Assembly: GCA_028693165.1 (NCBI GenBank)
Contig: JAQUVX010000012.1
Location: 40,355 to 104,354, forward strand
Direction of reading: 5' to 3'
DNA length: 64,000 bases
Source: Lachnospiraceae bacterium
GTDB lineage: Bacteria; Bacillota; Clostridia; Lachnospirales; Lachnospiraceae
Of this stretch, positions 14,399-32,502 are shown piece after piece. Numbering within the stretch: position 1 is the stretch's first letter; each line of letters opens with the position of its first letter. Made by a program: the position numbers and the translations under genes. A model generated the notes under the pieces. It did not search any database. It was not told the origin of the DNA and saw nothing but the letters and a program-made list of their open reading frames with translations.

Positions 14399-16207
14399 TC
14401 ACACTCTCACATACACCGAAGACAGAAACACCAGCCCATCGCTCTCAAATCGGGCGTCGCCCTGTCCTTTTCGGGCCACGGCCTGAATCGAGGAGAGGCC
14501 GATTCCAAAATCCTCCCGCTTCCGGGAACGGAATTTGCCCTGCTCCTCGGTGACCTTCCCGTCAAAGCTGTTATCCATGGTGATGGTGAGCATGTCGTAT
14601 TGCAGGCTGCTGTTTAAGCGGATAAACTTGTGCCCCTCGGTCATGCGGGTGCAGGCCTCCACCGCATTTTCCAGCAGGTTTCCGAAGATGACACAAAGGC
14701 TGCTGTCGGTCATCTGTTCATTGTGCTCGGGGACGGTGAGGTTTATGGTGCAGTCAATTCCATTTTTTTCACATATAGAGGCGTAGCGGGAAACGATGGC
14801 ATTGACCGCAGGATTTTCGCAGTAGCTCTTTGGCGAGGACGGTACCTGCTCGATCAGGGAGCTGATGTAATCGTTTAATTTCTCGTTGTCGTGGTCGGCA
14901 AGTTCCTTCACTACGGTGAGCTGGTGGCGCAGATCATGGCGCTGCTGTCTCAGTTTTTCTGCATTTTCCACCATCAAAAGGCTGTGTTTTTTCTGTTCCT
15001 CGATCTGCATTTCCATGAGATTTACCTCAAAGGCAAGCTCCCGCTGCTGGTGCTCCAGCTTAATCACATCCCGGATATAGAGGCCGCCCGCAATCCCTGT
15101 AAACACGATGAAAAACAGGATTCCCATCTGGAACAGGGAGGCGAACATATAGGTGAATGCAAACTGATAATTAAAGACCTCAAGCAGTGAGGAAAGTGTC
15201 AATATCCCGATGGGAAGCACAAACCGCATCGCCCCGATTTCCTTATGGACGATACATTCATAAACCGTAAAGCCCGTCAGGATACAAAGCGTCAGCGGCA
15301 CCAGAATATGAAACAGATACATACTCTTTGAGAGCGGAACAAGCCCCAGTAATTGCAGCAGCAGTGCCCCGCTCGAAGCGATGGTCATGAAAATGGCAAG
15401 CCATTGGAGCAGCTTCTCGTGTGTAAAATGAATGGCTGTCATTGCAAAATAGAGCAGTGGGATCGCAAAGGTAAACAGGCCCATAAACGCCAGCAGATAC
15501 AGCAGGGTAGGGTTCTTAAACAAAACCCCGGAAAAGTTGCATTCGCCAAACGCCCACGCCCCGGTGGTAAGGGAGAACAGGCCCAGCCAGAAGAACAGGA
15601 TGCCCTTCTTTTCAAAAAGCAGCACAAAAAACGAGGTTAAGAGAAGAAGGATTCCAATAATCAACTGCATGGAGGAAAAGATAAAGGGCATTCCAAGCGT
15701 TTTGGTCCGGTTCCCGAACACGGATTTGATATCACCCAGGATCGGTGCGTGCACCGTCAGCACATCACGGGCTATGGGAGAGAGGAATTCCATCCGCAGC
15801 GTGACTTCTCCGCTGTGATTTCCAAGTGGAATCATATAGACCTCGGTGGCCGGGTCCACCATAAAAGAAGGGTAACTGTCCCAAACACCAAATTCGTGAA
15901 TCAGCGTATCATCCACATAGATTTTTGCCGACGAATAGACACTCTTCATGTAGATCACATCATGGGGCCTGGCGGTAATCCGGGCACGGATGGTAACCGG
16001 GGTGCGCGGTGCCAGATGCTTGAAGCTGTAGGGCAGCGTAATCGGTTTTTCTTCGCCGTTGATGCTTGCGGTTACATCAGTAATCGTGGTGACGCGGTCC
16101 AGCTTTGTGCTCTTTATGACAAACCCTTTGGCACCAATCAGCAGCAGACCAACCATCAAAACAAGGATGACTTGCGTGATCAGGGCGAGGGAAATTCGCT
16201 TTTTCAT
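14399..16207 (-). CDS. GHKL-type sensor histidine kinase with 7TM sensor region
   Basis: A 602-residue membrane kinase. After one N-terminal helix comes an extracellular part of about 160 residues, then a run of seven or so hydrophobic helices (about 175-385) resembling 7TMR-DISM sensors, then a coiled region. The kinase core is of the AgrC/ComD-like GHKL type: H-box RHDLRHQ with the likely phospho-His at 424, N-box NLLENAVEAC and a C-terminal FGIGLSS G-box. It overlaps the LytTR response regulator gene by 4 bases (ATGA). The ligand is unknown, as extracellular sugar or peptide would fit the architecture. Confidence 0.92.
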   Translation of the reverse strand: MKKRISLALITQVILVLMVGLLLIGAKGFVIKSTKLDRVTTITDVTASINGEEKPITLPYSFKHLAPRTPVTIRARITARPHDVIYMKSVYSSAKIYVDDTLIHEFGVWDSYPSFMVDPATEVYMIPLGNHSGEVTLRMEFLSPIARDVLTVHAPILGDIKSVFGNRTKTLGMPFIFSSMQLIIGILLLLTSFFVLLFEKKGILFFWLGLFSLTTGAWAFGECNFSGVLFKNPTLLYLLAFMGLFTFAIPLLYFAMTAIHFTHEKLLQWLAIFMTIASSGALLLQLLGLVPLSKSMYLFHILVPLTLCILTGFTVYECIVHKEIGAMRFVLPIGILTLSSLLEVFNYQFAFTYMFASLFQMGILFFIVFTGIAGGLYIRDVIKLEHQQRELAFEVNLMEMQIEEQKKHSLLMVENAEKLRQQRHDLRHQLTVVKELADHDNEKLNDYISSLIEQVPSSPKSYCENPAVNAIVSRYASICEKNGIDCTINLTVPEHNEQMTDSSLCVIFGNLLENAVEACTRMTEGHKFIRLNSSLQYDMLTITMDNSFDGKVTEEQGKFRSRKREDFGIGLSSIQAVARKGQGDARFESDGLVFLSSVYVRV

Positions 16208-16929
16208 TGTGAAATCCCCCTTGTTTTATGAAATAAAAAGTTTTCGAGGGCTTTTTTGGCTTTCCCCATGCTTTCCCTGCGAATCGGAATATTTTTGCCA
16301 TTTTGCATCACAAAGCATTTCAGCTCTGTATCAATATACCGGACAAAAGAAAGATTGACCGCAAAGCTTTTGTGGGAACTGAAAAAATCCTGTCTGGCAA
16401 GCTCCGGCAAAAGCGCGGACAGCTTTTCATAGATCAGAACCGTTTCCCTGTTCTTCAGATAAATATTCAGCTGATGGGTCTGCTGTTCCAGATAGAGAAT
16501 CTGGGAAAATGGAATTTTTTCCGTGCTTCCATTTCTTTGAATCATCAGGGAAGGTGCATTGCTTTTTTTGAGCAGCGCCAGTTCCAAAATATCTTCGATG
16601 TCCTTCTGCTTAAATGGCTTTTCTATGTATTTCAGTGCCGAAAGCCGGTAGCTCTCCAACGTGTGGTCGGTGCTGGTCGTAATAAAGGCAACGGGAACTT
16701 CCCCGTCGGTTTCTCTGATTTTCGCAATGGTCTCTACTCCTGTAATCCCACCCATATAAATATCCATCAGCAGCAAATCAAAGGCCTGCGGCTGATATGC
16801 CTCCAGCAATGCTTCCCCGCTTGTGAAAACGGTGCAGCTTGTCGGTATGCTGCATTTTGGTAAAAGCGCAAGAAGCTTTTCTTCCTCGCTGTGCGTATCC
16901 TCGCAGATTGCAATATTTAGTGTGTTCAT
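16204..16929 (-). CDS. LytTR-family response regulator
   Basis: A 241-residue response regulator: receiver domain with phospho-acceptor Asp56 (LLLMDIYMGG), then a LytTR DNA-binding domain from about residue 140 (IPFSQILYLEQQTHQLNIYL, SFVRYID). I moved the start to ATG 16929 because GGGAGGTG precedes it and the protein then begins MNTLNIAICED; the longer frame adds 12 unlikely residues. It is the first gene of a two-gene operon with the GHKL kinase. LytTR regulators usually bind paired direct repeats upstream of surface or secreted-product genes, so the nearby giant surface protein is a possible target. Confidence 0.92.
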   Translation of the reverse strand: MNTLNIAICEDTHSEEEKLLALLPKCSIPTSCTVFTSGEALLEAYQPQAFDLLLMDIYMGGITGVETIAKIRETDGEVPVAFITTSTDHTLESYRLSALKYIEKPFKQKDIEDILELALLKKSNAPSLMIQRNGSTEKIPFSQILYLEQQTHQLNIYLKNRETVLIYEKLSALLPELARQDFFSSHKSFAVNLSFVRYIDTELKCFVMQNGKNIPIRRESMGKAKKALENFLFHKTRGISQ

Positions 16930-16954
16930 TGTAGTCACCTCCCTGCAAGGATAG

Positions 16955-16984
16955 CATATAGGCACAAAAAAGTCAATTTGTCAA
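16955..16984 (-). promoter_or_regulatory. promoter candidate for the LytTR/GHKL operon
   Basis: Reading the minus strand, TTGACA (16979-16984) is followed after 17-18 bases by CTATAT/TATATG (16955-16961), about 26 bases before the response-regulator start codon. Confidence 0.55.
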
Positions 16985-17086: not shown

Positions 17087-17317
17087 ATGATAAAAGAATA
17101 TTTTACCGCCTGTGAAGAAACATTTCCTGGGAGACAGGTAGAACTACGGCGGATTTCCCTTTCGCTGCGCAGAGCGGGCATTGTGACAATGGAGACTTTG
17201 TGCCGGATGCAAAGAGAGAATCCTGAAAATATAAAAGAGATACGAAATATCGGGGGGAAAAGTGCAGAGCTGATTGCGGTGATTTGCAGGCAGTATGAGG
17301 ATGACTCGGAACGATAA
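17087..17317 (+). CDS. small protein resembling the RNA polymerase alpha subunit C-terminal domain
   Basis: A 76-residue free-standing protein whose helices resemble the helix-hairpin-helix of RNA polymerase alpha-CTD: LRRAGIVTMETLCRM followed by IKEIRNIGGKSAELI, similar to the LKRAGI...L..IRNLGKKS pattern of alpha. The N-terminal alpha domain is absent. ATG 17087 follows AAGGAGGTGAG. It lies just upstream of the conserved leader and MalT-type regulator and could touch DNA or regulators as a decoy or adaptor, but no function is established here. Confidence 0.75.
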   Translation: MIKEYFTACEETFPGRQVELRRISLSLRRAGIVTMETLCRMQRENPENIKEIRNIGGKSAELIAVICRQYEDDSER

Positions 17318-17335: not shown

Positions 17336-17440
17336 TGAAAAAACCTCGTTTTTTGAGCAAAGACTATCCCTATGGGTAGGTTACAGACAGAAGAGCGCAT
17401 GATAGAATAAAAACGATTATAAAAAGTCGTTTTTCAAACC
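17336..17440 (+). promoter_or_regulatory. conserved leader element C, copy 1 (upstream of the MalT-type regulator)
   Basis: An element shared with 32043-32150. The common core is TTTTTGAGCAAAGACTA followed by a small hairpin (CTA-T-CCC at 17364-17370, loop TAT, GGGTAG at 17374-17379) and GGTTACA, then a second homologous box ATAAAAAGTC. In this copy AAAAACGA (17409-17416) and TCGTTTTT (17427-17434) form a second stem. Loop and bulge bases vary between copies while both stem arms are kept. It may be a structured 5' leader RNA or an operator for the regulator encoded downstream. It does not match a riboswitch class that I can name with confidence. Confidence 0.6.
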
Positions 17441-17472: not shown

Positions 17473-19842
17473 ATGGAGGAACGATTTATCAAGGTTCCCA
17501 TTTTGTTTCAAAAGTTGAAACAGGCAGAGGAAGAGCACTGCCTTCTCTATATCAAAGCATTGGGCGGTTATGGGAAAAGTACGGCGGTTCAGCATTATTT
17601 GCGCAGCAAATCACACCTGACCATAAGTGGTGCGGAAGGCTTCTTTGACACCATGCCGCCGCCGGAGACCATACGCCAGGGTGTGGTGGTCATTGATGAT
17701 ATTTCCTTTCTCAAGGAAAAAGAAAGCATCCGGTATCTTGGATCGCTGTTAGAGCGGTCGGATAAATGGTTCATTCTCATTGGCAGAAGTCCCCTTCCCA
17801 TGTGGTTACAGGCACAGATCGCTAACCGCAAAGTCCTGTTTGCAGTGGAAAGGGACTTGATGTGGGATGCGCAGCAGACAAGGAAGTTCCTTGCAGACTA
17901 TGAGGTGGAGGTTACACCGGAGGAAGCAGAGCAGATTGCCGCAGACACGGTGGGGCATGTAGTAACGTTAAAACTGCTGGCACAGCGTATGCGGGACGGA
18001 CTTCCCTATGGAGCAGAGGCGGCGGAGAAAACAAGGATTGATTTGTACCGCTATCTGGACCATGCTTTTTATGAGTCCTGGGATGAGGAATTAAAACAGG
18101 CGATGCTGCGGCTTGCCGGATTTGACAGCTTTACCCTTCCCATGGCGCAGATGATCACCGGGTGTGGGAATGCAAGCCTGCTGCTGGAAAAAGCCATGAC
18201 CCTCAGTGAGTTTTTGCAAAGTGACGGACAGGGTAATTATCGGATGCGTTCCATCCTTCGGGAATATCTGTTGTGGAAGCAGAGCAGCGAGCTGACCGGG
18301 GAGCAGTATAACAACCTTTATTATAATGCAGGACTTTACTTTGAACTCCAGGGGGACATCAAACAGGCATTGGCCTGTTATGACAAAAGTAAAAGTCAGG
18401 GAAAGATCGCCGAGCTTCTGATTAAGAATTCCATGAAGCACCCCGGCAACGGACATTACTATGAAACCAGAGCGTATTATCTGAACCTGCCGAAAGAACA
18501 GGTGGAGACATCCCCGATTCTGATGGCGGGCTTATCTATGCTCCACTCCCTGCTGATGCAGACCAGGGAGAGTGAACAGTGGTATGAAGCACTGAAAGCC
18601 TTTGAGCAGAAGCCGGGCCTCTCAAACAATCAGAAAAAAGAGGCGAGAAGCCGTCTTGCCTACTTAGATATTGCATTGCCCCACAGAGGAAGCGTGGGAC
18701 TTTCCAACATTCTGGAAAATGCAGCCATGCTGTGCAGGCAGCGGTCGGTGGTACTGACCGAGTTTTCCATCACCAGCAATATGCCGTCGGTGATGAATGG
18801 GGGAAAGGATTTCTGCGAATGGAGTAAAATCGACAGGGAGCTGGCCAAGACACTCAAAAAACCTGTCGAGCTGGTGCTTGGAAACTTCGGCGCCGGACTG
18901 GTCAATGTTGCCCTGGCAGAAAGTGCGTTTGAGAAGGGCAGCATGGATGCCTATGAAATCCTCTCTCTGTTAAACAGCGGCTACATCATAGCAGACACCA
19001 AAGGAACGGCAGAGATGTGCTTTGCCATCATCGGTGTTATGACCAGAATCCATATCAGCCGGAAACAGCCGCAGCGCGCCGCGTCCCTGCTCATGGATTT
19101 CAAGGAAAAGGTGATCCGGGAGGGACATCATCATCTGCTCCCCAATATCAATGCCTTATCCGTAGCCATCGGACTTTTTACGGGCAAGGTGGAGGCGGCC
19201 AGCCAGTGGATTGCGGACGAAGCACCCAATGAAAATGTAGAATTTTATATTCTGGAACGCTACCGCTATCTGGTCAAAATCAAGGCTTACCTTGCGCTTG
19301 GACGGTTGGAGGAAGCCGCGAGCCTGATTGAACGGCTGTCCTACTACTTTGAGCAGTACCAGAGAAATTACCAGCAGATCGAAAACGGACTGCTCCGTGC
19401 CATCGTCCAGTACCGGATGCACCTGGGAAACTGGAAACAGAGCCTGACCGAAGCACTGCAAAAAGCGGAAGGGTACCGGTTTGTTCCTGTGGCAGCAGAA
19501 TACGGTGTGGCACTTCACCCGCTTATGAAAGAAGCAGGAGACTTAGACCTTGCAAACGAGTATAGGCAAAGGCTGGAGCAGGCGGTCAGAGAGTATGCAC
19601 TTGGCTATCCCAAATATCTGGAGGCCACGCAGACACTGACACAGCCGCTGACCGACATGGAGGCGAAGCTCCTGCCCCTGCTGTGCAGTGGTGCATCATT
19701 AGAAGAAATCGCTGCCAGGTGCGGGATCACCTACAACACTGTCAAGTATCACAACCGTAACATTTACCGGAAACTAGGCGTAAAGAACCGGCAGCAGGTG
19801 CAGGTGGCGGCAAGACAGCTTGGACTGTATGGCGGTACATAA
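17473..19842 (+). CDS. MalT/LuxR-type STAND ATPase transcriptional regulator
   Basis: A 789-residue regulator of the MalT-like class: an N-terminal STAND NTPase with Walker A GGYGKST (residues 31-37) and Walker B VVVIDD, a middle region of helical repeats that usually senses an inducer, and a C-terminal LuxR-type helix-turn-helix (LTDMEAKLLPLLCSGASLEEIAARCGI.. NTVKYHNRNIYRKLGV). It sits 44 bases upstream of the giant surface-protein gene with no visible terminator between, so it probably controls and may be co-transcribed with it. ATG 17473 follows a GGGGGACTCC stretch, a modest ribosome binding site. Confidence 0.9.
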   Translation: MEERFIKVPILFQKLKQAEEEHCLLYIKALGGYGKSTAVQHYLRSKSHLTISGAEGFFDTMPPPETIRQGVVVIDDISFLKEKESIRYLGSLLERSDKWFILIGRSPLPMWLQAQIANRKVLFAVERDLMWDAQQTRKFLADYEVEVTPEEAEQIAADTVGHVVTLKLLAQRMRDGLPYGAEAAEKTRIDLYRYLDHAFYESWDEELKQAMLRLAGFDSFTLPMAQMITGCGNASLLLEKAMTLSEFLQSDGQGNYRMRSILREYLLWKQSSELTGEQYNNLYYNAGLYFELQGDIKQALACYDKSKSQGKIAELLIKNSMKHPGNGHYYETRAYYLNLPKEQVETSPILMAGLSMLHSLLMQTRESEQWYEALKAFEQKPGLSNNQKKEARSRLAYLDIALPHRGSVGLSNILENAAMLCRQRSVVLTEFSITSNMPSVMNGGKDFCEWSKIDRELAKTLKKPVELVLGNFGAGLVNVALAESAFEKGSMDAYEILSLLNSGYIIADTKGTAEMCFAIIGVMTRIHISRKQPQRAASLLMDFKEKVIREGHHHLLPNINALSVAIGLFTGKVEAASQWIADEAPNENVEFYILERYRYLVKIKAYLALGRLEEAASLIERLSYYFEQYQRNYQQIENGLLRAIVQYRMHLGNWKQSLTEALQKAEGYRFVPVAAEYGVALHPLMKEAGDLDLANEYRQRLEQAVREYALGYPKYLEATQTLTQPLTDMEAKLLPLLCSGASLEEIAARCGITYNTVKYHNRNIYRKLGVKNRQQVQVAARQLGLYGGT

Positions 19843-19886: not shown

Positions 19887-22800
19887 ATGAAACGGAACTT
19901 AAAGCGACGATTATTGGCAGGGGTATTATCTGCCTGCATGATTTTTCAGACCGTCGGCATGGCACCGGTCTATGCTGCGGGGAATGTGAGAGATGGCGGT
20001 GTATCGATTGATACAGGCATCGTGTGTGAGAACCACACAGAGCATACGGCGGACTGTTATGTACAAATAGAAAACTGTATACATGACCATACCGATGCGT
20101 GCTACTCTGATGCAGACGATGAGGAAGCAACCGGAAGTGATGCAAAAAATCTCACGGAATGTGAACATATCTGTGACGAGGCAAGCGGCTGCATCACGAA
20201 GAAGCTGAACTGCACCCATAGCTGTGAGCTGTGTGCAGAGAATGGCGGAGCGGATGCCGGAGAAGATCTTGAGGAAGCCATAGAAGAAGATATTGAGCTT
20301 GCTACAGAAAGCAATGCAGATAAGATGCAGTCTGCCATAGAAGAGCTGATATCGAAGATTGATGCTCTGCCCGAGGCAGATGAAATCACGGATGAAAACC
20401 GGAAAACTGCAAAAGCAGACCTTGAGGAAGTGTTTGCAGAATACGATAAACTGTTTGAGGATGAGACAATAACCGACCTTGACGGACAGCTTGGAACAGA
20501 GCGTATGGAAAAGCTCACTGCACTGCGTGAGGTGCTGCTTGATATGGTGAACCTTGTGGAGGAAGAAGTCTACGCGGTTTATGACGGGAAGGACTTCTGG
20601 AAGGCAACAAAAGAAGATCCTACAGTGTCCACAGGTGACTATATAGGAACAGGCGACCAGAGCAGCATTGTATATTTGTATGCAGAAGCCACAAGCTCGT
20701 CTATGATGATGTTGGAAGAAAGTCTAAAAGAAGTAACCTTTGCGGATACGGTAACAGGGATTGCAGATTATGCGTTTTATGGCTGCAGCAATCTGGAAAA
20801 AGTCTACATGCCATCGAAGGCTTCTATTAGCAGATGGGCATTTTATGGCTGCAGCAAGCTTTCGGATATAGATTTGTCCAATGTAACAGAAGTGAGTCCA
20901 AACGCATTTGATAACTGTACCAGTCTTACAAGGGTAAGTCTGTCCAGTGCATCTAAAATCGATACCCAGGCGTTCCAAGGATGTACACAGATTCAGGAGG
21001 CAGACATTACAAATGCAACGAAAATTGGCAATTCTGCATTTCAGAACTGTACAGCCTTGAAAAAGGTAACTATGCCAAATGTAATTGAAATTGGTACTAT
21101 GGCCTTTCGGAACTGCAGCGCCCTTCAAAGTGCAGATTTACAAAATGCAACCACGATAGGGGAAGCTGCGTTTGAGAAATGTCGCAATCTGGCAAGCGTC
21201 GTTATGCCAAAAGTAACCCAAATCGGTACTGGTGCATTTCAGTATTGTGACAAACTGACAAATATTACGATGAGTGCAGAACTGCCGACCGTTGGCCGAT
21301 ATATTTTCCAGGGGGCTAATTCACCACGCGCCCTGACACTCTATGGCAATCCAAGGCTCTATGATGCGGTAATCGCTCAATTTGATGATGCAGATGGCAC
21401 AAAAGACAATATGTGGTACGGCTGTGAACTGCCGGCTTCATTTATCAACACGAATGCTGTCGATTCTACAGGCACACTTAAAGTAAAAGAAGGCAGCCTT
21501 ACCCCCGGATTGGGCGAAGATAACACAATCACATTCACTGCCGCATTTGAAAAAGCGAATGCGATGCGGATGGCACTTGTTACGAACCAGATTGTGCTGA
21601 TGGACGGCGAAACGCAGCTTGGGGAGCCGGTTATTGCCAAACAAGCTGACGATGGCAGATGGACTGCAGAGTTGACCGTGAACACCAGCGAATGGGCTGT
21701 TGGAGAGCACGATATCACTGCCAGGTTTGCAGGAAATAATGAGTTAAACGATAGTGAAACCAACTCAGTGGCAGTAACTGTAATCGAAAGCTATGCTGTT
21801 TATGAAAATGGAAAATTCTTTGCGGCAACAAAAGAGGAGCCTGAAGTAGCAACGGATACTGAAATTTTAGAAGAAAATAAAAAAACAATCAACTACCTTT
21901 ACAGCAATGTTGAAACTGTACCAAACAATTTGATGGCGGGGTGTGGGGGTCTAAAAACTGTCACTATGCCGAATGCAACTACAATTGCATATCGTGCGTT
22001 TTATGACTGTACCAGTCTGACTGGTGTAGAGCTGCCAAAGGCAACTGAAATTGGTGAAAATGCATTTGATGGCTGCAATGCTCTTACAAGTGTAGAAATA
22101 CCAAAGGTAATCACAATCAAGAGGCAGGCATTTATGCAGTGCGCTCTTCTTGAAACTGTAACAATGCCAAACGTAACCATAATCGAAGATAATGCGTTTT
22201 CTAACTGTCCAGTTCTGGAAACTGTAGAAATGCCAAACGTAATAGAGATCGGAGCCTACGCATTTTCTGCCTGTGAAAGGCTTGCAAACGTGTCGGCACC
22301 AAAGGTAACCACAATCAGTGATGGTGCATTTATGCAGTGTGGTTTAGCAAACATTACCCTTGGTGCGACGCCGCCAACAGTTGATACAAATGCTTTCCTA
22401 AGTTGCCCTGCATCTCGTAACCTGACTATTTTTGGCAACGACGCTTTCAGGGACGATGTTATCAATGCATACAAGGCTGTCGATGATGGTGTAACCGATG
22501 AACTGTGGTACGGCTGGACATTACCAGAGTCCCTTGTCGGCACAGGTGTGTCCGCTTCCGCAGGAACACTTACTGTAACAGATGGCAAAACTGACACAAT
22601 GTTTGGCGAGAACAACGAAATCATCTTCACTGCAACCTTTGCTAAAGCGCCTGCTTCTGCAACGGAAGGCCTGTTAAGGACTTTAGCAATCAATGAGGTT
22701 CAGTTTAAAGATGGCAATGAGCCTCTTGAAGCAGCAGTAGCAGCAACGGAAGATGGCAATGGCAACTGGGTGGCTAAACTTACTGTAAACACCAGTGCTT

Positions 22801-25800
22801 GGGCTGTGGATACACATAACATCACAGCCGAGTTTACGGGAAACCACGATCTGAATGGTGCAGTCACCACCCAGGTGGCAGTAACGGTAAGCGAAACCTA
22901 CGCCGTGTATAACGGAACAGGTTTCTATTATGCAGACAGCGAAGAACATACAAAGCCAACAGAAAAAGTAGTCACAGATAAAAACATAATCCAGAATCTT
23001 TATATTGATGTTGAAGCTGTACCGGATGTATTAATGTGGAACTGTGCAAACCTAAAAATAGTTACCTGTTCGGATAAGGTAACCCAAATCGACGACGGTG
23101 CATTTTCTGCTTGTTCGGTCCTTACAAAGGCAGAAATGACAGCGGTAACCAAAATCGGCAATGATGCATTTTCTAGCTGTGCAGCTCTTGCAACTGTGGA
23201 TTTGTCAGAGGTAACCTCAATCGGCGACAGAGCATTTATGTATTGTTCGGTTCTTACAAAGGCAGAAATGCCAGAGGTAACCCAAATCGACAATAATGCA
23301 TTTGACAGTTGTACAGCTCTTACAACTGTAACAATGCCAAAGGTAAGCGCAATTGGTGAGAGTGCATTTTCTAACTGTACAGCTCTTACAACTATAACAA
23401 TGCCAAAGGTAACCAAAATTGGTACGGGGGCATTTTATAACTGTGTAAAGCTTAATAGCATAACACTAGGTGCAACACCTCCAACAGTTGGTGAAGATGC
23501 TTTCCGAGGTTGCTCTAACACTCGTAACCTGACGATTTTGGGTAACACTGCCTTTGCCGCAGATGTGCTTAATGCATATAAGGCTGTCGATGACGGTGTA
23601 ACAGATGAGCTGTGGTACGGTTGGACATTGCCAACCGCCATTGACGGCACAAATGTGCCTAACGCAACAGGAACACTGGCTGCAACAGCAGGTAACACCA
23701 CAGCAACTTACAGTCAGGCCAACACAATCACATTCACGGCAAGCTTTCAAAAGGCTGGCGAAAGCAGACTTAGAACGGCTGTTCAAAACCAGATCACACT
23801 GATGAACGGCAGTTCTGTAGTAGAAAGCAAAGCTGCAACGCTGACCGAAGGCGTATACTCCGCAGAATTTACTGTGGATACAAGCGAACTTGATGCAGGA
23901 ACTTATCACTATACCGCCACATTTGACGGCAACGGCAGCCTGAAGGAATCTGAGAGTAATGTGGTGATTGTTACCGTTACCCAGTCCGCCACAGACTTTG
24001 AGGATGGTGTGAAAGCAGATCGATCCGAATATACCTACGGCGATACCATTACCATAACTGCAAAACCACAGGCAACGGGTACAGCAGTTAACGCAAGATT
24101 TTTCACAGCACCGGGAGCCAATCAGATGGCATTGTTTGTGGGTGGTAAGCAGATTAGTGAAGCTGTGACCGCAGACGCAGATGGTGTCTATACCATGACA
24201 TATGACACCAAGGGCAAACACCTTACTATCGGCCCGAATAGCATTACTGCGAACTATGTGGGCAATACCAATATGGCAGATGTAAGCGATGATGTACTCG
24301 TAATGCTGAATAGAAAGCCGATCATGTCCGCAGAGGTCGACACAACGGATGCTGCCGCAAGCAAAGAATATGACGGCACAGACAGCTTTACCGGTGTTGC
24401 ATTGACACTGGATACGAGCAGCATTTTCAGTGGAGATACCGTTACAGCAGTCGCAGCCGGAACATCGGCAGGCACAGATGTTGGCACGAGTCATAGCTTC
24501 ACCGCCACCAGCGTAACCCTGGATGGTACAGACGCTATTTATTACAGTCTTGAGAGTACGGCTGTCAGCGGCACTGTGGCCATTACCGAAGCAACCCCTG
24601 CCGTTACGGTAACGGCAGTGAAGCAAAAATCGCTTCTTAGAAGCATCATTGGCGATCATGACGACATCATTGTTCTAACAGCAACCGTCACAGGTGTACC
24701 AGGCGGCACAACACCAGCCGGAACTGTTACCTTCAAAAACGGCGAAACTACGATTGAAAGTAATGCAGCGATGTCAAAGGGTGTTGCAAGCTGTGAATGG
24801 AAAAACCCGGCAGCGGATGTTAATTACACCATCACCGCAGAATTTACAGCGGCGGAAAATACCAATTATAAGAATGCCACAGGAACTTCCGAGGCGTTTG
24901 ACATTAGTAAGGCAGAGCAGAAGGCACTAAATATTACGGTACCGGCTGCGGTGACTTATGGGGATGCAGACTTTACCCTGGGCACCACAGGCGGCAGCGG
25001 TACCGGCGCAGTGACTTATGAAGTGACAGAAGGAACGGTTGTCTCGGTTACCAAAGACGGCAAAGTGGCTGTCCTGGCAGCAGGCGAAGCTACCATCACC
25101 GCGACGAAAGCAGGCGATCCCAACTATAACGCTAAGACGGGTACTGTAAACATTACCGTGAAGGCTGCAGCTCCGGTTCTTACATGGGGTGAGGCAGCGC
25201 AGACAGTAACCTATACAGGTAAACCGGCAGTGATTAAAGCGCCAACTGCAGCCGGAGTAACCGGTGGTACAATACCGAATGGGACAATCAGTTACACCTA
25301 TGAGAAGAAGAGCCTGAGCTCACTTTTCACAGCACCGGAAAACGGTCTGCCTGTAGATGCAGGAATCTATACCGTGACGGCGCATATTGCGGCAGAGGGC
25401 AACTACACTGCTGCAGACAGCAGTACCATGGAGCTGACCATTATCAAATCAACACCGGAGCTTTCCATAGGCGCAGACTATTTAGGCAAACCATATGACG
25501 GCAAAGCCATAGACCCGCCAACGGCTGCCCAGATGACAATCACAGGTACCGCGTATGCAGAGGTAACCTTTGCTTATAGCCAAAATGCCGATATGAGCAG
25601 TCCTCTTACCACCGCACCAGCGGATGCAGGTACTTACTATGTGCAGGCAGGTGTTAAGGAAGGTGCTAACACCAACGCGGCAGTCTCTGCACCAAAGGAA
25701 TTTACTATTGACAGAATTAACCCCGTTATCGAGGTTGCGACGGACAAAACCAGCCAGTTAGGTGGTAAGGATGTTCAGGTAACGGTGAAAATTACCAACC

Positions 25801-28800
25801 CGGACGGCGCGGCTACCGGCTTCCCGGAAGCGGGCGAGATTGCTATTGCACCGACGAATGCAGCCTTAAAATCAGGTACTGCAATCACAGGCGCAAATGG
25901 AACCTATACGGCAACCTATACGCTGGCAGCTTACAGCAGCGGCGCAAAGGCACATTTTACAGCAACGGTACCAAAAGCAACCACAAACTATAATGCAGAT
26001 ACCACAGGTACAAGTTCAGGTGATGTTACAATTCTTGACCAATACGTACCGACCGTTACCATCGAAGCGGATGAGACATCCGTAATCTATGGTGAATCCG
26101 TGACTCTGACGGCAGCCGTTGGCAAGGACGGCAAGACCAGCGACCTGGCGGGAACCGTTCAGTTTAAAGAGGGCGGCACAGCCATCGGCGAACCGGTTGC
26201 CATTGACAGTGCCGGTGCAGCAGCCATAACGGTTGATAAAGCAACTCTTACTTATAATAATGGCACAGAACACAGCTTTACAGCAGAGTTTACCCCTGCA
26301 GCCGGCAGTGACTATAAGTCGAATGCCTCGTCTGCCTGTGAAGTAAAAGTTACAAAAGCTGCCATGACAGGCGAAGCTGCAATTACAGGTATTGCCAAAT
26401 ATGGCCAGACACTGACCGCAGATACCTCTACATTAAAGGGTATCGATGGTGAAGAGTTAGGCACATTCACCTATCAGTGGAAGAGAGCCGGCAGTGATAT
26501 TGCAGGCGAAACAAAGAGCACTTACGTGGTTGCAGAAGCAGATTTGGGCAAGGCAGTTACCGTGGAAGTCACACCGGTAAATGGAAACTACAGTGCTAAG
26601 ACAAGTGGGGCAGTCACACCGGCAAAGGCAGATTCGACCATTGCCTTTACGGACACAAGTCTTGATAAGACCTATGACGGTTCACCAATCACAGACCCTG
26701 TTAAAACGACGAATTATACTACGACAGGAAGCACAGGGAATGTGACCTTTGAGTGGTATAGTGGAGCGACAAAGCTTGCTTCTGCACCGGAGAATGTGGG
26801 TACTTATACCGTAAAGGCAATCCTTAAGGCAGATAATAAGTACGAAGGAGCGTCTACAGGAACCAATAAGGAATTTAAGATTACAGCAAAGACGATTGAG
26901 CCAGACATCGAAGCAATCGACGAGCAGACCTATACCGGCAAACAGTTGACACCGGAGGTTACGGTAAAGATAAAGGATAGCACGACCACCCTTGTGTCCG
27001 GCTCAGATTACACCGTCGCATACGGCGATAATGTCAATGCAGGAACCAATGCCGGTAACGTGACAGTTACCCTGATCGGTAACTACAGCGGCGAGAAAGA
27101 GGCTAAATTTACAATTAAGAAAGCACCACTGACCATCACCGGCGGTACCGTCACCGGCAGAGCATGGGATGGCACCAGGACAGCTGTAGTAACCGCAATC
27201 ACATTTGATGGTCTGAAGAATGATGAAACATTAACCATGACCGCAGATTACACCGTGACAGGTGCCCAGTTTGCAAATGCCAATGTGGGAACCGGAAAGG
27301 AAGTGTCCGGAACGGTTACGCTGGTATCAGATGGAGCAACAGCGAAGAATTACAGTCTGGCACAGGGCGCACTTGTGAATGTAAAGGGTGATATCACAAG
27401 AGCATCCAGCCCGGCAGCACCAACCGACGGAAGTGTGGATGATACGAATAACACCTTCGGCTTTACTGTGAATCCGAACTTTACGGATATTACAGCTTAT
27501 GAATACAGCCTGGACAGTGGGAAAAACTGGACGAAAGTTACAGTCAAACCGATTCCACTGGGTAATGTCAATATCCCGGCAGGACAGTTACAGGTACGGA
27601 TTGCAGCGACAGATAACCACGCAGCAGGAGAAGTGCTTTCTAATGACAAAGCATTTACCGCAGTCTTAGAAGGTGATGTTGCCATCGCAGGTACTGCTGT
27701 TTACGGCGGTACACTGAATGCCACCGTATCCGGTGCACAGGCTGGGGCAGATCTTCATTATAAGTGGATGGCCGGAGACAAGAAGGTCGGCACTGACAGC
27801 ACGGCTTATGCAATCGGAAAAGAAGCAGTGGGCCAGACGGTCAAAGTTGTCGTAACAGCTTTCGCAGACTATACAGGAGCACTGACTTCTGCATCAACTG
27901 CTAAAGTGGCACAGAAGGAAATTGCGCCAATTGCTCATGCAGAAGACAAAGAGTACGATGGAAATACCACTGCGGAGGTTTCATTTACATTTGCAGAGGG
28001 AGAGATTTTAAACAAGGACGAGGTTGCTGTCATAGCTACCGGTACCTTTGCCGATAAGAAGATGGGAACCGGAAAGACCGTCGCTCTGTCTGGCGTTGCA
28101 CTGACAGGTGCAGATAAGGACTATTATACCATGGCGGCGGCTCCGGCGAATCCGACCGCAGCGATTACAGCAAAGGTGTTAACAGTTACCGACGGAACTC
28201 TGGTTATTACCAAGACTTATGATGGAACCGGGAAATTTGCAGCAGAGAACGCTACAGGAAGTCTGGCTCTGACGAATCCGGTACAGGCAGCGGGAGAAGA
28301 TATCAAAGCTGTCATTACCGGGTATGGAAGCGCGGCAGATGGAAATGTGGGTAAGGACAAAGCGATTACCCTGACCATTGGTTTAAGCGGCGTGGATAAA
28401 GAAAATTATAAGCTGGACAGCACAAGCTATCCATTTAATGCAGGCATTACTGCAAAGGAGATTACGCCAATCATCGAAGCAATCGCCGACCAGACCTACA
28501 GCGGAAGTCAGCTGAAGCCGGAGGTTACGGTAAAGGATGGCACAACAACCCTTGTGCTTGGAACAGATTACACAGTCACATATGGTGAAAATATCAACGC
28601 AGGCGAGAATGCCGGAAGCGTAACGGTTACCTTAAAGGGCAACTATACAGGAAGCGGTGAAGTGAACTTTACAATCACCTCCATCGATCAGGCGCCTCTG
28701 GTGATCACGCAGGTGTCTGAGAAAACCTATGGAGACAAGGCGTTTACACTGGAGACAACAGGCGGAGACGGAACCGGGGCTGTGACCTACAGCGTACCGG

Positions 28801-30047
28801 AGGACAGTAAGGTCTTGGCAATTGACGGAGACCAGGCAGCGATCATCGGCAGTGGAACCGTTACTGTAACCGCAGTCAAGGCAGGGGATGGAAATTACAA
28901 CGCTGCAACTGCAACTCTTGAGATCACCGTTGCGAAGAAAGCAGCGACGGTTACCGCAGAGGATGTCTCGATGACAGCTGGAGAGGCAAAACCGGCCTAC
29001 AGCTATAAGGCAGACGGATTTGTAAACGGAGAGACCATAACCGGCGTTACCTTTGATGACAGCGCAGTGAATATTACGACAGCAGGAGTTTACAAGGTGA
29101 TGCCGCAGGGAGGAACCGTAACCGGTAATGGAGCAGACAATTACGAGCTTACCTATCTGCCGGGATCTGTCACGGTTCAGGTGAAAACCGATGCTCTGGA
29201 TGCGGCTGTCACAGCGGCATCGGAGGCGAAGAAAGACATCATCGTTTCTGACAAGGAGGCTTCTTCGATATCCAGAGGAACGAAGTTTGTAACGACTGGG
29301 GAAATGGCTCTTCTGGATGCAGCAATCCAGAAGGCGGAGGAAGTAAAGGCATCAGCGATCTCTTCCGAGGTTATCAATCAGGCTATTGCAGAGCTGAATG
29401 ATGCTGTGACTGCATTTAAGGCGGCCATTAAGACTGGAACCAAGAGCAGTTCAGGCGGCGGAAGCGGCTCAGGCGGCGGAAGCAGCTCTAGTGGCGGAAG
29501 CAGCTTAGGTACTGGTACCAGCGTATCTGCAGGAAGCAGTGGTACGGTAAGTACCGATGAAAAGAAAGGACAGATCAATTCTGCCACAGGTATCATCACC
29601 GGGGCTACGATCACCGGAGCGGCAGGCACCGGAGCAGCAAGCGGCAGCGCAGGGGATGGCTACAGCCACTGGGTACAGGAAAAAAAGGGCTGGAAGCTGC
29701 AATATGCGGACAGTACCTATGCCGCAGGAACCATGGTTACCGCAGCGAGTGGAGCAGCGACAGAGCAGCTTGCATGGGAACAGATCAACGGTGCGTGGTA
29801 TGCTTTTGGAGCAGACGGTTATACAAAATCCGGAATGCTGTTTGATACAGCATTGAACGGCTGGTTCTATATCGATATCAATAGTGGTATGAAGACCGGC
29901 TGGCAGTTCGTAGACGGAACATGGCGCTATTTCAATCCGCTTTCGGATGGAACGAAAGGAAAGATGGCAGCCAATACGAAAACACCGGATGGCTACAACG
30001 TAGGCCAGGATGGCATTTGGGATGGCCGGGAAGCAGATAAGAGCTGA
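19887..30047 (+). CDS. giant secreted multidomain surface protein (BspA-type LRR, Ig/MBG modules, wall-binding repeats)
   Basis: A 3386-residue wall-associated protein, probably an adhesin. Order: signal peptide (1-32, ending VYAAG); Cys/His-rich segment (about 47-118); helical acidic segment to 225; three copies of a module in which a YAVY(D/E/N) lead-in is followed by BspA-type leucine-rich repeats of about 23 residues (LRR blocks near 280-505, 670-875 and 1040-1245) and an Ig-like part; then YDG/MBG-type modules with KTYDG or QTYTGKQLTPEV motifs from about 1475 to 3090; a FIVAR-like helical stretch (about 3100-3185); a Gly/Ser linker; and choline-binding-like repeats (GAWYAFGADGYTKSG, GWFYI, GTWRYFNP) to the end. 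No LPXTG motif is present, so anchoring is by the repeats. Start follows AGGAGG. Confidence 0.93.
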   Translation: MKRNLKRRLLAGVLSACMIFQTVGMAPVYAAGNVRDGGVSIDTGIVCENHTEHTADCYVQIENCIHDHTDACYSDADDEEATGSDAKNLTECEHICDEASGCITKKLNCTHSCELCAENGGADAGEDLEEAIEEDIELATESNADKMQSAIEELISKIDALPEADEITDENRKTAKADLEEVFAEYDKLFEDETITDLDGQLGTERMEKLTALREVLLDMVNLVEEEVYAVYDGKDFWKATKEDPTVSTGDYIGTGDQSSIVYLYAEATSSSMMMLEESLKEVTFADTVTGIADYAFYGCSNLEKVYMPSKASISRWAFYGCSKLSDIDLSNVTEVSPNAFDNCTSLTRVSLSSASKIDTQAFQGCTQIQEADITNATKIGNSAFQNCTALKKVTMPNVIEIGTMAFRNCSALQSADLQNATTIGEAAFEKCRNLASVVMPKVTQIGTGAFQYCDKLTNITMSAELPTVGRYIFQGANSPRALTLYGNPRLYDAVIAQFDDADGTKDNMWYGCELPASFINTNAVDSTGTLKVKEGSLTPGLGEDNTITFTAAFEKANAMRMALVTNQIVLMDGETQLGEPVIAKQADDGRWTAELTVNTSEWAVGEHDITARFAGNNELNDSETNSVAVTVIESYAVYENGKFFAATKEEPEVATDTEILEENKKTINYLYSNVETVPNNLMAGCGGLKTVTMPNATTIAYRAFYDCTSLTGVELPKATEIGENAFDGCNALTSVEIPKVITIKRQAFMQCALLETVTMPNVTIIEDNAFSNCPVLETVEMPNVIEIGAYAFSACERLANVSAPKVTTISDGAFMQCGLANITLGATPPTVDTNAFLSCPASRNLTIFGNDAFRDDVINAYKAVDDGVTDELWYGWTLPESLVGTGVSASAGTLTVTDGKTDTMFGENNEIIFTATFAKAPASATEGLLRTLAINEVQFKDGNEPLEAAVAATEDGNGNWVAKLTVNTSAWAVDTHNITAEFTGNHDLNGAVTTQVAVTVSETYAVYNGTGFYYADSEEHTKPTEKVVTDKNIIQNLYIDVEAVPDVLMWNCANLKIVTCSDKVTQIDDGAFSACSVLTKAEMTAVTKIGNDAFSSCAALATVDLSEVTSIGDRAFMYCSVLTKAEMPEVTQIDNNAFDSCTALTTVTMPKVSAIGESAFSNCTALTTITMPKVTKIGTGAFYNCVKLNSITLGATPPTVGEDAFRGCSNTRNLTILGNTAFAADVLNAYKAVDDGVTDELWYGWTLPTAIDGTNVPNATGTLAATAGNTTATYSQANTITFTASFQKAGESRLRTAVQNQITLMNGSSVVESKAATLTEGVYSAEFTVDTSELDAGTYHYTATFDGNGSLKESESNVVIVTVTQSATDFEDGVKADRSEYTYGDTITITAKPQATGTAVNARFFTAPGANQMALFVGGKQISEAVTADADGVYTMTYDTKGKHLTIGPNSITANYVGNTNMADVSDDVLVMLNRKPIMSAEVDTTDAAASKEYDGTDSFTGVALTLDTSSIFSGDTVTAVAAGTSAGTDVGTSHSFTATSVTLDGTDAIYYSLESTAVSGTVAITEATPAVTVTAVKQKSLLRSIIGDHDDIIVLTATVTGVPGGTTPAGTVTFKNGETTIESNAAMSKGVASCEWKNPAADVNYTITAEFTAAENTNYKNATGTSEAFDISKAEQKALNITVPAAVTYGDADFTLGTTGGSGTGAVTYEVTEGTVVSVTKDGKVAVLAAGEATITATKAGDPNYNAKTGTVNITVKAAAPVLTWGEAAQTVTYTGKPAVIKAPTAAGVTGGTIPNGTISYTYEKKSLSSLFTAPENGLPVDAGIYTVTAHIAAEGNYTAADSSTMELTIIKSTPELSIGADYLGKPYDGKAIDPPTAAQMTITGTAYAEVTFAYSQNADMSSPLTTAPADAGTYYVQAGVKEGANTNAAVSAPKEFTIDRINPVIEVATDKTSQLGGKDVQVTVKITNPDGAATGFPEAGEIAIAPTNAALKSGTAITGANGTYTATYTLAAYSSGAKAHFTATVPKATTNYNADTTGTSSGDVTILDQYVPTVTIEADETSVIYGESVTLTAAVGKDGKTSDLAGTVQFKEGGTAIGEPVAIDSAGAAAITVDKATLTYNNGTEHSFTAEFTPAAGSDYKSNASSACEVKVTKAAMTGEAAITGIAKYGQTLTADTSTLKGIDGEELGTFTYQWKRAGSDIAGETKSTYVVAEADLGKAVTVEVTPVNGNYSAKTSGAVTPAKADSTIAFTDTSLDKTYDGSPITDPVKTTNYTTTGSTGNVTFEWYSGATKLASAPENVGTYTVKAILKADNKYEGASTGTNKEFKITAKTIEPDIEAIDEQTYTGKQLTPEVTVKIKDSTTTLVSGSDYTVAYGDNVNAGTNAGNVTVTLIGNYSGEKEAKFTIKKAPLTITGGTVTGRAWDGTRTAVVTAITFDGLKNDETLTMTADYTVTGAQFANANVGTGKEVSGTVTLVSDGATAKNYSLAQGALVNVKGDITRASSPAAPTDGSVDDTNNTFGFTVNPNFTDITAYEYSLDSGKNWTKVTVKPIPLGNVNIPAGQLQVRIAATDNHAAGEVLSNDKAFTAVLEGDVAIAGTAVYGGTLNATVSGAQAGADLHYKWMAGDKKVGTDSTAYAIGKEAVGQTVKVVVTAFADYTGALTSASTAKVAQKEIAPIAHAEDKEYDGNTTAEVSFTFAEGEILNKDEVAVIATGTFADKKMGTGKTVALSGVALTGADKDYYTMAAAPANPTAAITAKVLTVTDGTLVITKTYDGTGKFAAENATGSLALTNPVQAAGEDIKAVITGYGSAADGNVGKDKAITLTIGLSGVDKENYKLDSTSYPFNAGITAKEITPIIEAIADQTYSGSQLKPEVTVKDGTTTLVLGTDYTVTYGENINAGENAGSVTVTLKGNYTGSGEVNFTITSIDQAPLVITQVSEKTYGDKAFTLETTGGDGTGAVTYSVPEDSKVLAIDGDQAAIIGSGTVTVTAVKAGDGNYNAATATLEITVAKKAATVTAEDVSMTAGEAKPAYSYKADGFVNGETITGVTFDDSAVNITTAGVYKVMPQGGTVTGNGADNYELTYLPGSVTVQVKTDALDAAVTAASEAKKDIIVSDKEASSISRGTKFVTTGEMALLDAAIQKAEEVKASAISSEVINQAIAELNDAVTAFKAAIKTGTKSSSGGGSGSGGGSSSSGGSSLGTGTSVSAGSSGTVSTDEKKGQINSATGIITGATITGAAGTGAASGSAGDGYSHWVQEKKGWKLQYADSTYAAGTMVTAASGAATEQLAWEQINGAWYAFGADGYTKSGMLFDTALNGWFYIDINSGMKTGWQFVDGTWRYFNPLSDGTKGKMAANTKTPDGYNVGQDGIWDGREADKS
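20572..23990 (+). repeat. three large in-gene repeat modules (LRR plus Ig-like)
   Basis: Module starts are marked by YAVYDGKDFW (about 20572), YAVYENGKFF (about 21795) and YAVYNGTGFY (about 22903). Each runs about 370-410 residues and ends in an Ig-like segment. Modules 2 and 3 share long blocks such as NAYKAVDDGVTDELWYGWTLP. Inside each, LRR units of about 69 bp recur (AFxxC...L..V.MP.VT.IG). Unit number differs between modules, so recombination may change the length. Confidence 0.8.
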
Positions 30048-32042: not shown

Positions 32043-32150
32043 AAGGAAAAGACCCGCGTTTTTGAGCAAAGACTAGCCCTGGGGGTAGGTTACAAACCAG
32101 AAACTTTATAATAAAATAATAAAAAGTCATCTTCCAAATTATTGTAAAAA
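32043..32150 (+). promoter_or_regulatory. conserved leader element C, copy 2 (upstream of the 88-residue gene)
   Basis: Second copy of the element at 17336. Core TTTTTGAGCAAAGACTA, hairpin CTA-G-CCC (32073-32079), loop TGG, GGGTAG (32083-32088), then GGTTACA and ATAAAAAGTC. Downstream, CATCTTC and GAAGATG form a second stem at a place comparable to the second stem of copy 1 but with different sequence. It ends about 35 bases before the gene at 32185. Confidence 0.6.
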
Positions 32151-32184: not shown

Positions 32185-32451
32185 ATGAGATGGAAGGAAG
32201 ACGTAATACTGGAGAAAGAGAATCCATTGCGCTTACGCTGGGGTGACAAGGTTCTTTCGATTGCAGAACGTGATGTCTATCTCGTAAAAGCCGTGGAAAA
32301 GGGCATTTGTAACGATGAGGATTTAGTCAGACTGGTTGCCAAAGAGGAGGGCATTGATGAAACAGCTGTTGCCTTTGGGTTGGCGCAGTTTCTGCTTGAT
32401 TACAGCGATTTTATCGAGGAGGATACCTCGCATTACATCATTACCAGGTAA
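32185..32451 (+). CDS. hypothetical 88-residue protein
   Basis: A small acidic protein with a well-placed ribosome binding site (GGGAGGATTATAAAG before ATG) and a strong terminator right after it, so it is likely real. I do not recognise the family. The predicted pattern is a short N-terminal strand region (NPLRLRWGDKVLSI) followed by helices and a C-terminal segment; the DLVRLVAKEEGIDETAVAFGLAQFLLD part vaguely resembles PqqD-like winged-helix proteins, but the similarity is weak. It shares leader element C with the MalT-type regulator gene, suggesting joint control with the surface protein. Confidence 0.7.
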   Translation: MRWKEDVILEKENPLRLRWGDKVLSIAERDVYLVKAVEKGICNDEDLVRLVAKEEGIDETAVAFGLAQFLLDYSDFIEEDTSHYIITR

Positions 32452-32460
32452 CTGATTGTG

Positions 32461-32493
32461 AGCCTGTCAGGGAGTTGCTTTCCCTGATGGGCT
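32461..32493 (+). terminator. terminator hairpin B, copy 2
   Basis: A 13-bp stem (AGCCTGTCAGGGA with TCCCTGATGGGCT, two G-T pairs) with a 7-base loop, then TTATTTTATT. The arm CCTGATGGGCT is shared with the hairpin at 14337-14376. Confidence 0.8.
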
Positions 32494-32502
32494 TATTTTA
32501 TT

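Follow-up and report, generated by a model that had tools for sequence, protein, structure and literature searches.

The closest described relatives of the element presented here are three binding sites of LuxR-type regulators: (i) the MalT operator of Actinoplanes; (ii) the MalT box of Escherichia coli; and (iii) the ComA box of Bacillus subtilis. In Actinoplanes sp. SE50/110, MalT activates through the motif TCATCC-5 nt-GGATGA, which overlaps the -35 region and whose end lies 34.4 ± 1.0 nt from the mapped start sites (PMC7567727). The MalT box of E. coli is quoted in the same paper as GGGGA(T/G)GAGG, with the core GGA(T/G)GA (PMC7567727), and E. coli MalT itself, a STAND protein, is reported to be activated by maltotriose, to oligomerise and then to bind promoter sites (PMC10427625). 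The ComA box reads TTGCGG-4 nt-CCGCAA (PMC4797271). In literature searches restricted to open-licence PubMed Central papers, no description of the operator discussed below was found for Clostridia.

The window, that is, the whole stretch of 64,000 nucleotides from a Lachnospiraceae bacterium analysed here, contains two copies of an element, at 17336 and 32043, where a sequence-only reading had placed them. That reading had described a CTA(N)CCC/GGGTAG hairpin with bulged arms, followed by a GGTTACA box and a second stem, as a candidate regulatory RNA or operator. An inverted repeat is indeed present in both copies, but the bulged arms are wrong: the symmetric unit in homologues is a gapless 6-4-6 dyad, CTAnCC-N4-GGnTAG. 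Likewise, GGTTACA is shared by both copies but is no free-standing box, as it contains a -35 (TTACAR), followed after 16 nt by a -10 which had been overlooked in both copies. The elements are the following:

17364-17379, plus strand: putative operator copy 1, dyad CTATCC-CTAT-GGGTAG, agreeing with the consensus CTAnCC-N4-GGnTAG at all 10 fixed letters
17381-17386, plus strand: predicted -35 of promoter 1, TTACAG (framed by the promoter scan as GTTACA at 17380, with a spacer of 17)
17403-17408, plus strand: predicted -10 of promoter 1, TAGAAT, exactly 23 nt past the dyad and preceded by TGA (extended -10)
32073-32088, plus strand: putative operator copy 2, dyad CTAGCC-CTGG-GGGTAG, matching CTAnCC-N4-GGnTAG
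32090-32095, plus strand: predicted -35 of promoter 2, TTACAA (framed by the promoter scan as GTTACA at 32089, with a spacer of 17)
32112-32117, plus strand: predicted -10 of promoter 2, TAAAAT, 23 nt past the dyad

Both copies present the same order: dyad, G, TTACAG or TTACAA, exactly 16 bases, and TAGAAT or TAAAAT. Judged by its letters, the block behind the dyad is in both cases a predicted promoter of the sigma-A type with a weak -35, and the usual spacing would place the start sites near 17414-17415 (copy 1) and 32123-32124 (copy 2). Since the predicted start lies about 35 nt downstream of the dyad, the hairpin would be outside the transcript. Between 17200 and 17500, promoter 1 is the sole promoter-like site (0.5 expected from shuffles); in the region of copy 2, promoter 2 is one of three promoter-like sites and the sole one on the plus strand. 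The second stem does differ between copies 1 and 2, as had been noted; its position is at the predicted start or beyond it, and an alignment of eight close copies shows no conservation of it. In copy 1 the -10 is directly followed by a 10-pair hairpin (17409-17434), where the transcript is predicted to begin, and this hairpin too is unconserved in the eight copies.

The two copies are no chance matches. With as many as 3 mismatches tolerated, the 25-base pattern GAGCAAAGACTAnCCCnnnGGGTAG is still matched at just two places in the window and nowhere in 100 shuffles, while GAGCAAAGACTA has 2 matches in the whole 3.6-Mb genome versus 1 for the reversed pattern. The full dyad-plus-promoter pattern occurs at 2 sites genome-wide with 0 mismatches; at 2 mismatches three more rows appear, two of which are mirror readings of these dyads. 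When the dyad alone is searched with 2 mismatches allowed, it is not enriched in the window (11 matches versus 15.6 expected), and only the two exact copies stand out.

The dyad of the window resembles the Actinoplanes operator in its inverted hexamers, in the GG-N-T of its right arm, in its position at the -35 and in the type of regulator, MalT-like and of the LuxR family; its end lies about 35-36 nt from the predicted start, as compared with about 34 nt reported for Actinoplanes. On the other hand, the Actinoplanes site has GGATGA half-sites, a spacer of 5 and belongs to another phylum, whereas here the half-site is GGnTAG, the spacer is 4 and the predicted regulon is one of surface and signalling genes. 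The E. coli box also pairs a MalT-type regulator with an overlap of the -35 region, but, in the form quoted in the Actinoplanes paper, it consists of repeats of the core hexamer and not of a compact dyad, and it activates the mal genes. As for the ComA box, the likeness is that a dimer with LuxR-type helix-turn-helix domains sits on a 6-4-6 inverted repeat ahead of where the polymerase binds, and the half-site differs. ComA is, furthermore, a response regulator that lacks the ATPase and TPR parts.

In the window, a MalT/LuxR regulator is present and linked to the site, the site lies at the -35 at a fixed distance, and two inverted hexamers flank a 4-bp spacer. The MalT core hexamer GGA(T/G)GA is absent, the half-sites being GGGTAG (right) and GGATAG or GGCTAG (left, reverse strand). 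Because position, dyad form and regulator type agree and the core hexamer does not, the site was filed as a variant MalT-type operator and not as a member of that class. Dyads of the TCAnCC type, which resemble the MalT hexamer, were seen upstream of the distant homologues L042 and L053 and, more loosely, L056, although the looser dyad of L056 was not recovered in a second scan; GGATGA itself is present in L053. The regulators of L042, L053 and L056 have the recognition helix KTHV/KSQV instead of KYHN, and at L048, L049, L051 and L052, which share that helix type, no TCAnCC dyad was found; the idea that KTHV/KSQV regulators use TCAnCC dyads thus fits some of these loci and not others.

The genes around the two copies are the following:

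17473-19842, plus strand: MalT-like LuxR-family regulator of 789 aa, downstream of copy 1, with Pfam GerE (725-777) and TPR_MalT (522-687)
19887-30047, plus strand: very large surface protein of 3386 aa, the next gene after the regulator, with BspA-type LRR, Ig-like, YDG and MBG domains
32185-32451, plus strand: 88-aa protein downstream of copy 2 and its predicted target
32458-32496, plus strand: hairpin resembling a terminator, behind the 88-aa gene (1 found versus 0.3 expected in shuffles)

Both Pfam matches of the regulator are above cut-off, and its best NCBIfam match is MalT (NF003420), at 105.9 bits and far under the cut-off of 537. The gene of the 3386-aa protein, whose choline-binding-type matches are weak and below cut-off, begins 44 nt past the stop codon of the regulator, and the two genes probably form one operon; linking copy 1 to a regulator that adjoins a surface-protein gene was a good observation of the sequence-only reading. 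Copy 2 probably drives a one-gene unit, because a terminator-like hairpin follows the 88-aa gene. The 88-aa protein has no Pfam or NCBIfam match and its AlphaFold model, with two short strands followed by three helices, is of low confidence (mean pLDDT 59); a homologue that is 77% identical lies in locus L013 between the regulator and the next large ORF.

Two further observations concern the DNA upstream of operator 1. A 76-aa ORF (17087-17317, plus strand), just upstream of the operator, shows a likeness to PF03118, the helix-hairpin-helix of the RNA polymerase alpha C-terminal domain (E 2.5e-4, 21.1 bits, under the cut-off of 23.8), and has a relative at the same place in L013 (9643-9891; 65% identical over 75 aligned residues); it is odd to find a stand-alone protein of this alpha-CTD-like kind beside an activator gene. 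A pair formed by a GHKL histidine kinase and a LytTR response regulator lies upstream of the operator region on the opposite strand (14399-16965, minus).

The conservation of the element was followed from the DNA and from the regulator. A search by DNA pattern in 397 genomes of the family found the motif in three besides the window's own, namely G375, G059 and G230 (twice), with promoter spacing as in the window. The copies of G375 and G059 and one of those of G230 precede homologues of the regulator (87%, 54% and 87% identity, respectively), and the second G230 copy lies directly upstream of a BspA-type LRR surface protein. The regulator protein was searched for in 84,980 species genomes, a search that was seeded by six short peptide patterns and so is not exhaustive, and 67 loci were obtained. 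Upstream DNA was taken from 64 of them, partial matches (L063, L064, L078) being left out; the pattern CTAnCC-N4-GGnTAG had been fixed before these loci were collected. An exact dyad occurs within 450 bp upstream of 15 of the 64 regulator genes, but in none of 320 coding windows and none of 1280 dinucleotide shuffles; after removal of L012 and L013 (the already known G375 and G230 loci), the count is 13 of 62. With at least 8 of the 10 letters required, the dyad is found at 24/64 regulator loci, versus 16/256 coding windows and 156/1280 mononucleotide shuffles. An earlier scoring of the upstream DNA had given 23/64 at 19 points or more versus 1/320 shuffles, its reverse-strand control being uninformative because the dyad reads alike on both strands; the conclusions are therefore based on the two counts given before it.

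The distance to the promoter was measured in 28 dyads picked without any -10 criterion: the 24 regulator-upstream ones, both copies of the window, and L008 and L011 (these last two were found with a pattern that includes GGTTAC and, hence, their -35 is not independent). A -10, defined as a TA...T box with at least 4/6 matches, lies exactly 23 nt past the dyad in 20 of the 28 and 24 nt past it in 6, no other offset exceeding 6, and the distance from dyad to start codon ranges from 84 to 425. Since the first spacing is nearly fixed and the second varies, the element goes with the promoter rather than with the gene start.

Not all related regulators carry the element. In an alignment of 77 regulator rows (the window plus 76 of 79 loci, with five duplicate pairs; L020, L074 and L078 were dropped for a short first match), 42 scored without a dyad plus -10. 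Among these, L035 has a 10/10 dyad with a poor -10, several have near variants, and the rest have nothing recognisable; no helix-turn-helix residue cleanly splits the aligned regulators with a dyad from those lacking it. A weaker group (L014, L015, L018, L023, L072) has CTACCCTTTT, followed mostly by an imperfect right arm.

A profile was built from 38 distinct copies (39 before one duplicate went: 15 found by a pattern including the -10, 22 by the dyad alone and 2 from the window), leaving out L015 and L072, with their imperfect right arm, and L095 and L097, which were taken for chance matches, as well as copies that were included already under a different locus. The profile shows conservation of an A-rich stretch, CTA, CC, GG, TAG, TT and a -35-like block, then of G-N-TAnAAT. 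Elsewhere than in the window the -35 boxes are often poor (TTCCAT, TTTACT, TGGACT, TTTTCT), and a good -10 (TATAAT) with a preceding TG is present in several copies.

These copies bear directly on whether the element is a structured regulatory RNA, such as a riboswitch-like leader with a conserved hairpin, a reading that now appears highly improbable. A short hairpin can be folded in both copies, and the whole of copy 1 folds better than its shuffles (z -2.49, 3/200 shuffles), its best fold having the 10-pair hairpin after the -10; the whole of copy 2, however, gains nothing over its shuffles (z -0.50), and the same holds for the short hairpins of the two copies (z -0.76 and -0.64). Dyad positions 4/13 are Watson-Crick in 17 of the 38 copies and U-G in 2, so that 19/38 would not pair as RNA. 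This complementarity is somewhat above chance (0.98% of shuffles reach 17/38), an excess which would follow from a preference of two identical protein subunits for one and the same letter on each side. Of the inner pairs proposed by the sequence-only reading, only 6/12 is general across the 38 copies: 5/13 forms in 13 (12 Watson-Crick, 1 G-U) and fails in 25, and 7/11 forms in 18 (5 Watson-Crick, 13 G-U) and fails in 20. A both-sided change at a conserved pair appears once in the 38 copies (6/11 = T-A in L040), and RNAalifold, run on eight close copies, predicted 7 pairs, none with a compensatory change. The arms are kept nearly letter for letter, unlike a typical RNA helix, and the promoter lies downstream of the hairpin at a nearly fixed spacing. 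A start site downstream of the element, together with a lack of covariation, had been named beforehand as the outcome that would speak against an RNA, and the in silico results agree with it: the start is predicted downstream, and no compensatory change was found in the eight close copies. Of the two options that had been offered, the evidence strongly favours the operator over the regulatory RNA.

The sequence-only reading could match the element to no known riboswitch, and Rfam gives 0 matches at the gathering score and, at E 10 or better, only four matches to unrelated families, all far under their cut-offs. The resemblance to the c-di-GMP-I riboswitch (RF01051) is presumably limited to the letters GCAAAG and GGTTAC, the first of which had been judged too short to count. 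That model finds nothing in the window, and its best match in the genome (16 bits, E 2.2; cut-off 35) is below cut-off and lies elsewhere. The predicted targets do include c-di-GMP enzymes, which may be a coincidence, and the element here, unlike that riboswitch, is predicted to be untranscribed. The riboswitch reading was rejected after Rfam, the c-di-GMP-I genome scan, RNAalifold and the single-strand folds, the only points in its favour being the fold of copy 1, the slight surplus of complementary letters at 4/13 and the single change at 6/11.

Beyond the regulator genes, the pattern dyad+N23+TAnAnT has 22 sites in 16 of the 397 family genomes, versus 5 matches for the reversed pattern. Eight of the 22 lie upstream of MalT-like regulator homologues. 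The other 14 can be grouped as follows: (i) one each before the 88-aa gene and the genes of a BspA-type LRR, a GLUG-motif, a beta-helix and a GGDEF-EAL protein, the GLUG and beta-helix proteins being secreted-looking by eye; (ii) one each before a single-domain response regulator, a LytTR response regulator and a BTAD regulator; (iii) two before membrane proteins with Reg_prop repeats; (iv) one before a putative glycosyltransferase gene, read by eye; and (v) three without a convincing target (L095, L097, L098). In addition, the 67 regulator loci (1.14 Mb) contain 4 further sites outside regulator promoters, versus 0 in the reversed-sequence control; a fifth such row, on the minus strand of L022, is the mirror of the regulator's own site. 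The genes behind these four encode a choline-binding-repeat protein (L020), a Reg_prop/HD-domain protein (L065) and Pfam-less proteins (L068, secreted-looking by eye, and L075). Operator-linked membrane proteins with Reg_prop propellers were observed at L065 (8539-12123), L086 (1-1401, minus strand) and L103 (1381-2841), the last two cut off by the locus end. In L065 the repeats are followed by HD/HD_5 (HD-GYP-like) domains, and L086 is the sole one of the three with an ECF-transporter match, below cut-off.

Site and regulator tend to occur together. A regulator at E 1e-30 or better is encoded in 13 of the 16 site-bearing genomes versus 2 of 16 hand-picked siteless ones (Fisher p 0.00024), a co-occurrence that is partly circular because in 8 of the 13 a site precedes the regulator itself; among the genomes with sites only before other genes, 5/8 encode it (p 0.021 versus 2/16). 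The two regulator-bearing control genomes turn out to have a dyad upstream of the regulator (10/10 and 9/10 letters), which the pattern missed because one has a spacing of 24 and the other differs in one letter. Of the three site-bearing genomes without the regulator at that threshold (G065, G088, G109), G065 has its site before a plausible target, and the sites of G088 and G109, 258 and 736 nt from the next accepted ORF, look like chance matches. No dyad of at least 7/10 is present in the 600 bp upstream of the regulators of G173, G294 and G125, though sites precede other genes in those genomes; the regulator of G049 has only a 7/10 variant in that stretch, its site lying elsewhere before another gene, and a second regulator of G375 has nothing above 7/10 upstream. 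Within the genus, both motif (1/24 genomes) and regulator (1/13 of those searched) are found in the window's own genome only, and no motif match was found in viral contigs. That the regulator is present in 1 of the 13 genus members searched, and yet 87% identical in two genomes belonging to other genera, suggests that the locus was transferred horizontally, as is likewise assumed for the Actinoplanes region by its authors (PMC7567727).

In our opinion, with a probability of roughly three in four, each copy is a DNA operator of the MalT-like LuxR-family activator, placed directly upstream of a weak sigma-A promoter. An autoactivating MalT-like switch is proposed because of the Actinoplanes MalT geometry, as far as reported, the LuxR-type 6-4-6 precedent of ComA and the domains of the regulator. 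According to this mechanism, the ATP-binding and probably oligomeric regulator would use two C-terminal GerE helix-turn-helix domains to read the GGnTAG half-sites on either side of the 4-bp centre. As the dyad ends 0-1 bp before the -35, its centre would fall near -43/-44, with the activator adjoining the sigma factor and recruiting RNA polymerase to a promoter whose -35 is often poor. At copy 1 the regulator would control its own gene and probably also the surface protein behind it; at copy 2 the 88-aa gene would join the same regulon. While the dyad, its promoter geometry, its conservation and its co-occurrence with the regulator were observed, we infer binding by this regulator, the inducer and the start sites, and it is the position of the dyad that argues for activation rather than repression.

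It is unlikely that the MalT-like protein acts at the dyad as a repressor of its own gene, or switches between both roles. Steric exclusion by a dyad that abuts the -35 is conceivable, and the good -10 boxes with a TG before them would suit it; nevertheless, the operator lies just upstream of the -35 and not over the core promoter, many -35 boxes are as poor as TTCCAT or TTTTCT, and the MalT precedent of similar geometry is described as an activator (PMC7567727). That the dyad might be owned by another transcription factor sharing these genomes, with the MalT-like gene as a mere target, is quite improbable. The distribution of sites would fit such a factor, inasmuch as 14 of the 22 do not precede the regulator, 11 of them lying before other genes (including two response regulators and the BTAD regulator), and the regulator is missing in 3 of the 16 genomes and itself without a dyad in three more. 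Against it, of the 22 sites, which the DNA pattern by itself had found, 8 precede this one regulator family, half-site and position resemble the proven MalT operator (PMC7567727), and motif and regulator are alike patchy within the genus.

The best reading of the locus is, then, a putative autoregulated MalT-like regulon of surface and c-di-GMP genes, and in place of a vague candidate RNA there is now a proposed operator that can be tested, its partner, its position and the bases it needs being defined. On a wider scale, the chances are about even that CTAnCC-N4-GGnTAG marks a widespread, undescribed MalT-like STAND regulon in Clostridia, in which many regulators activate themselves together with a few targets that change from genome to genome, namely surface adhesins, c-di-GMP enzymes (GGDEF-EAL, HD-GYP-like) and sensor proteins. 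Judging by the predicted targets, which are adhesin-like proteins, c-di-GMP enzymes and two-component regulators, the switch may have a part in surface and biofilm behaviour. The dyad would provide a DNA signature with which the targets of a large, little-studied family of clostridial regulators may be read from genomes, and, if the wider regulon is real, a nucleotide-gated activator of the MalT kind would serve there as a master switch for surface remodelling, not for sugar use.
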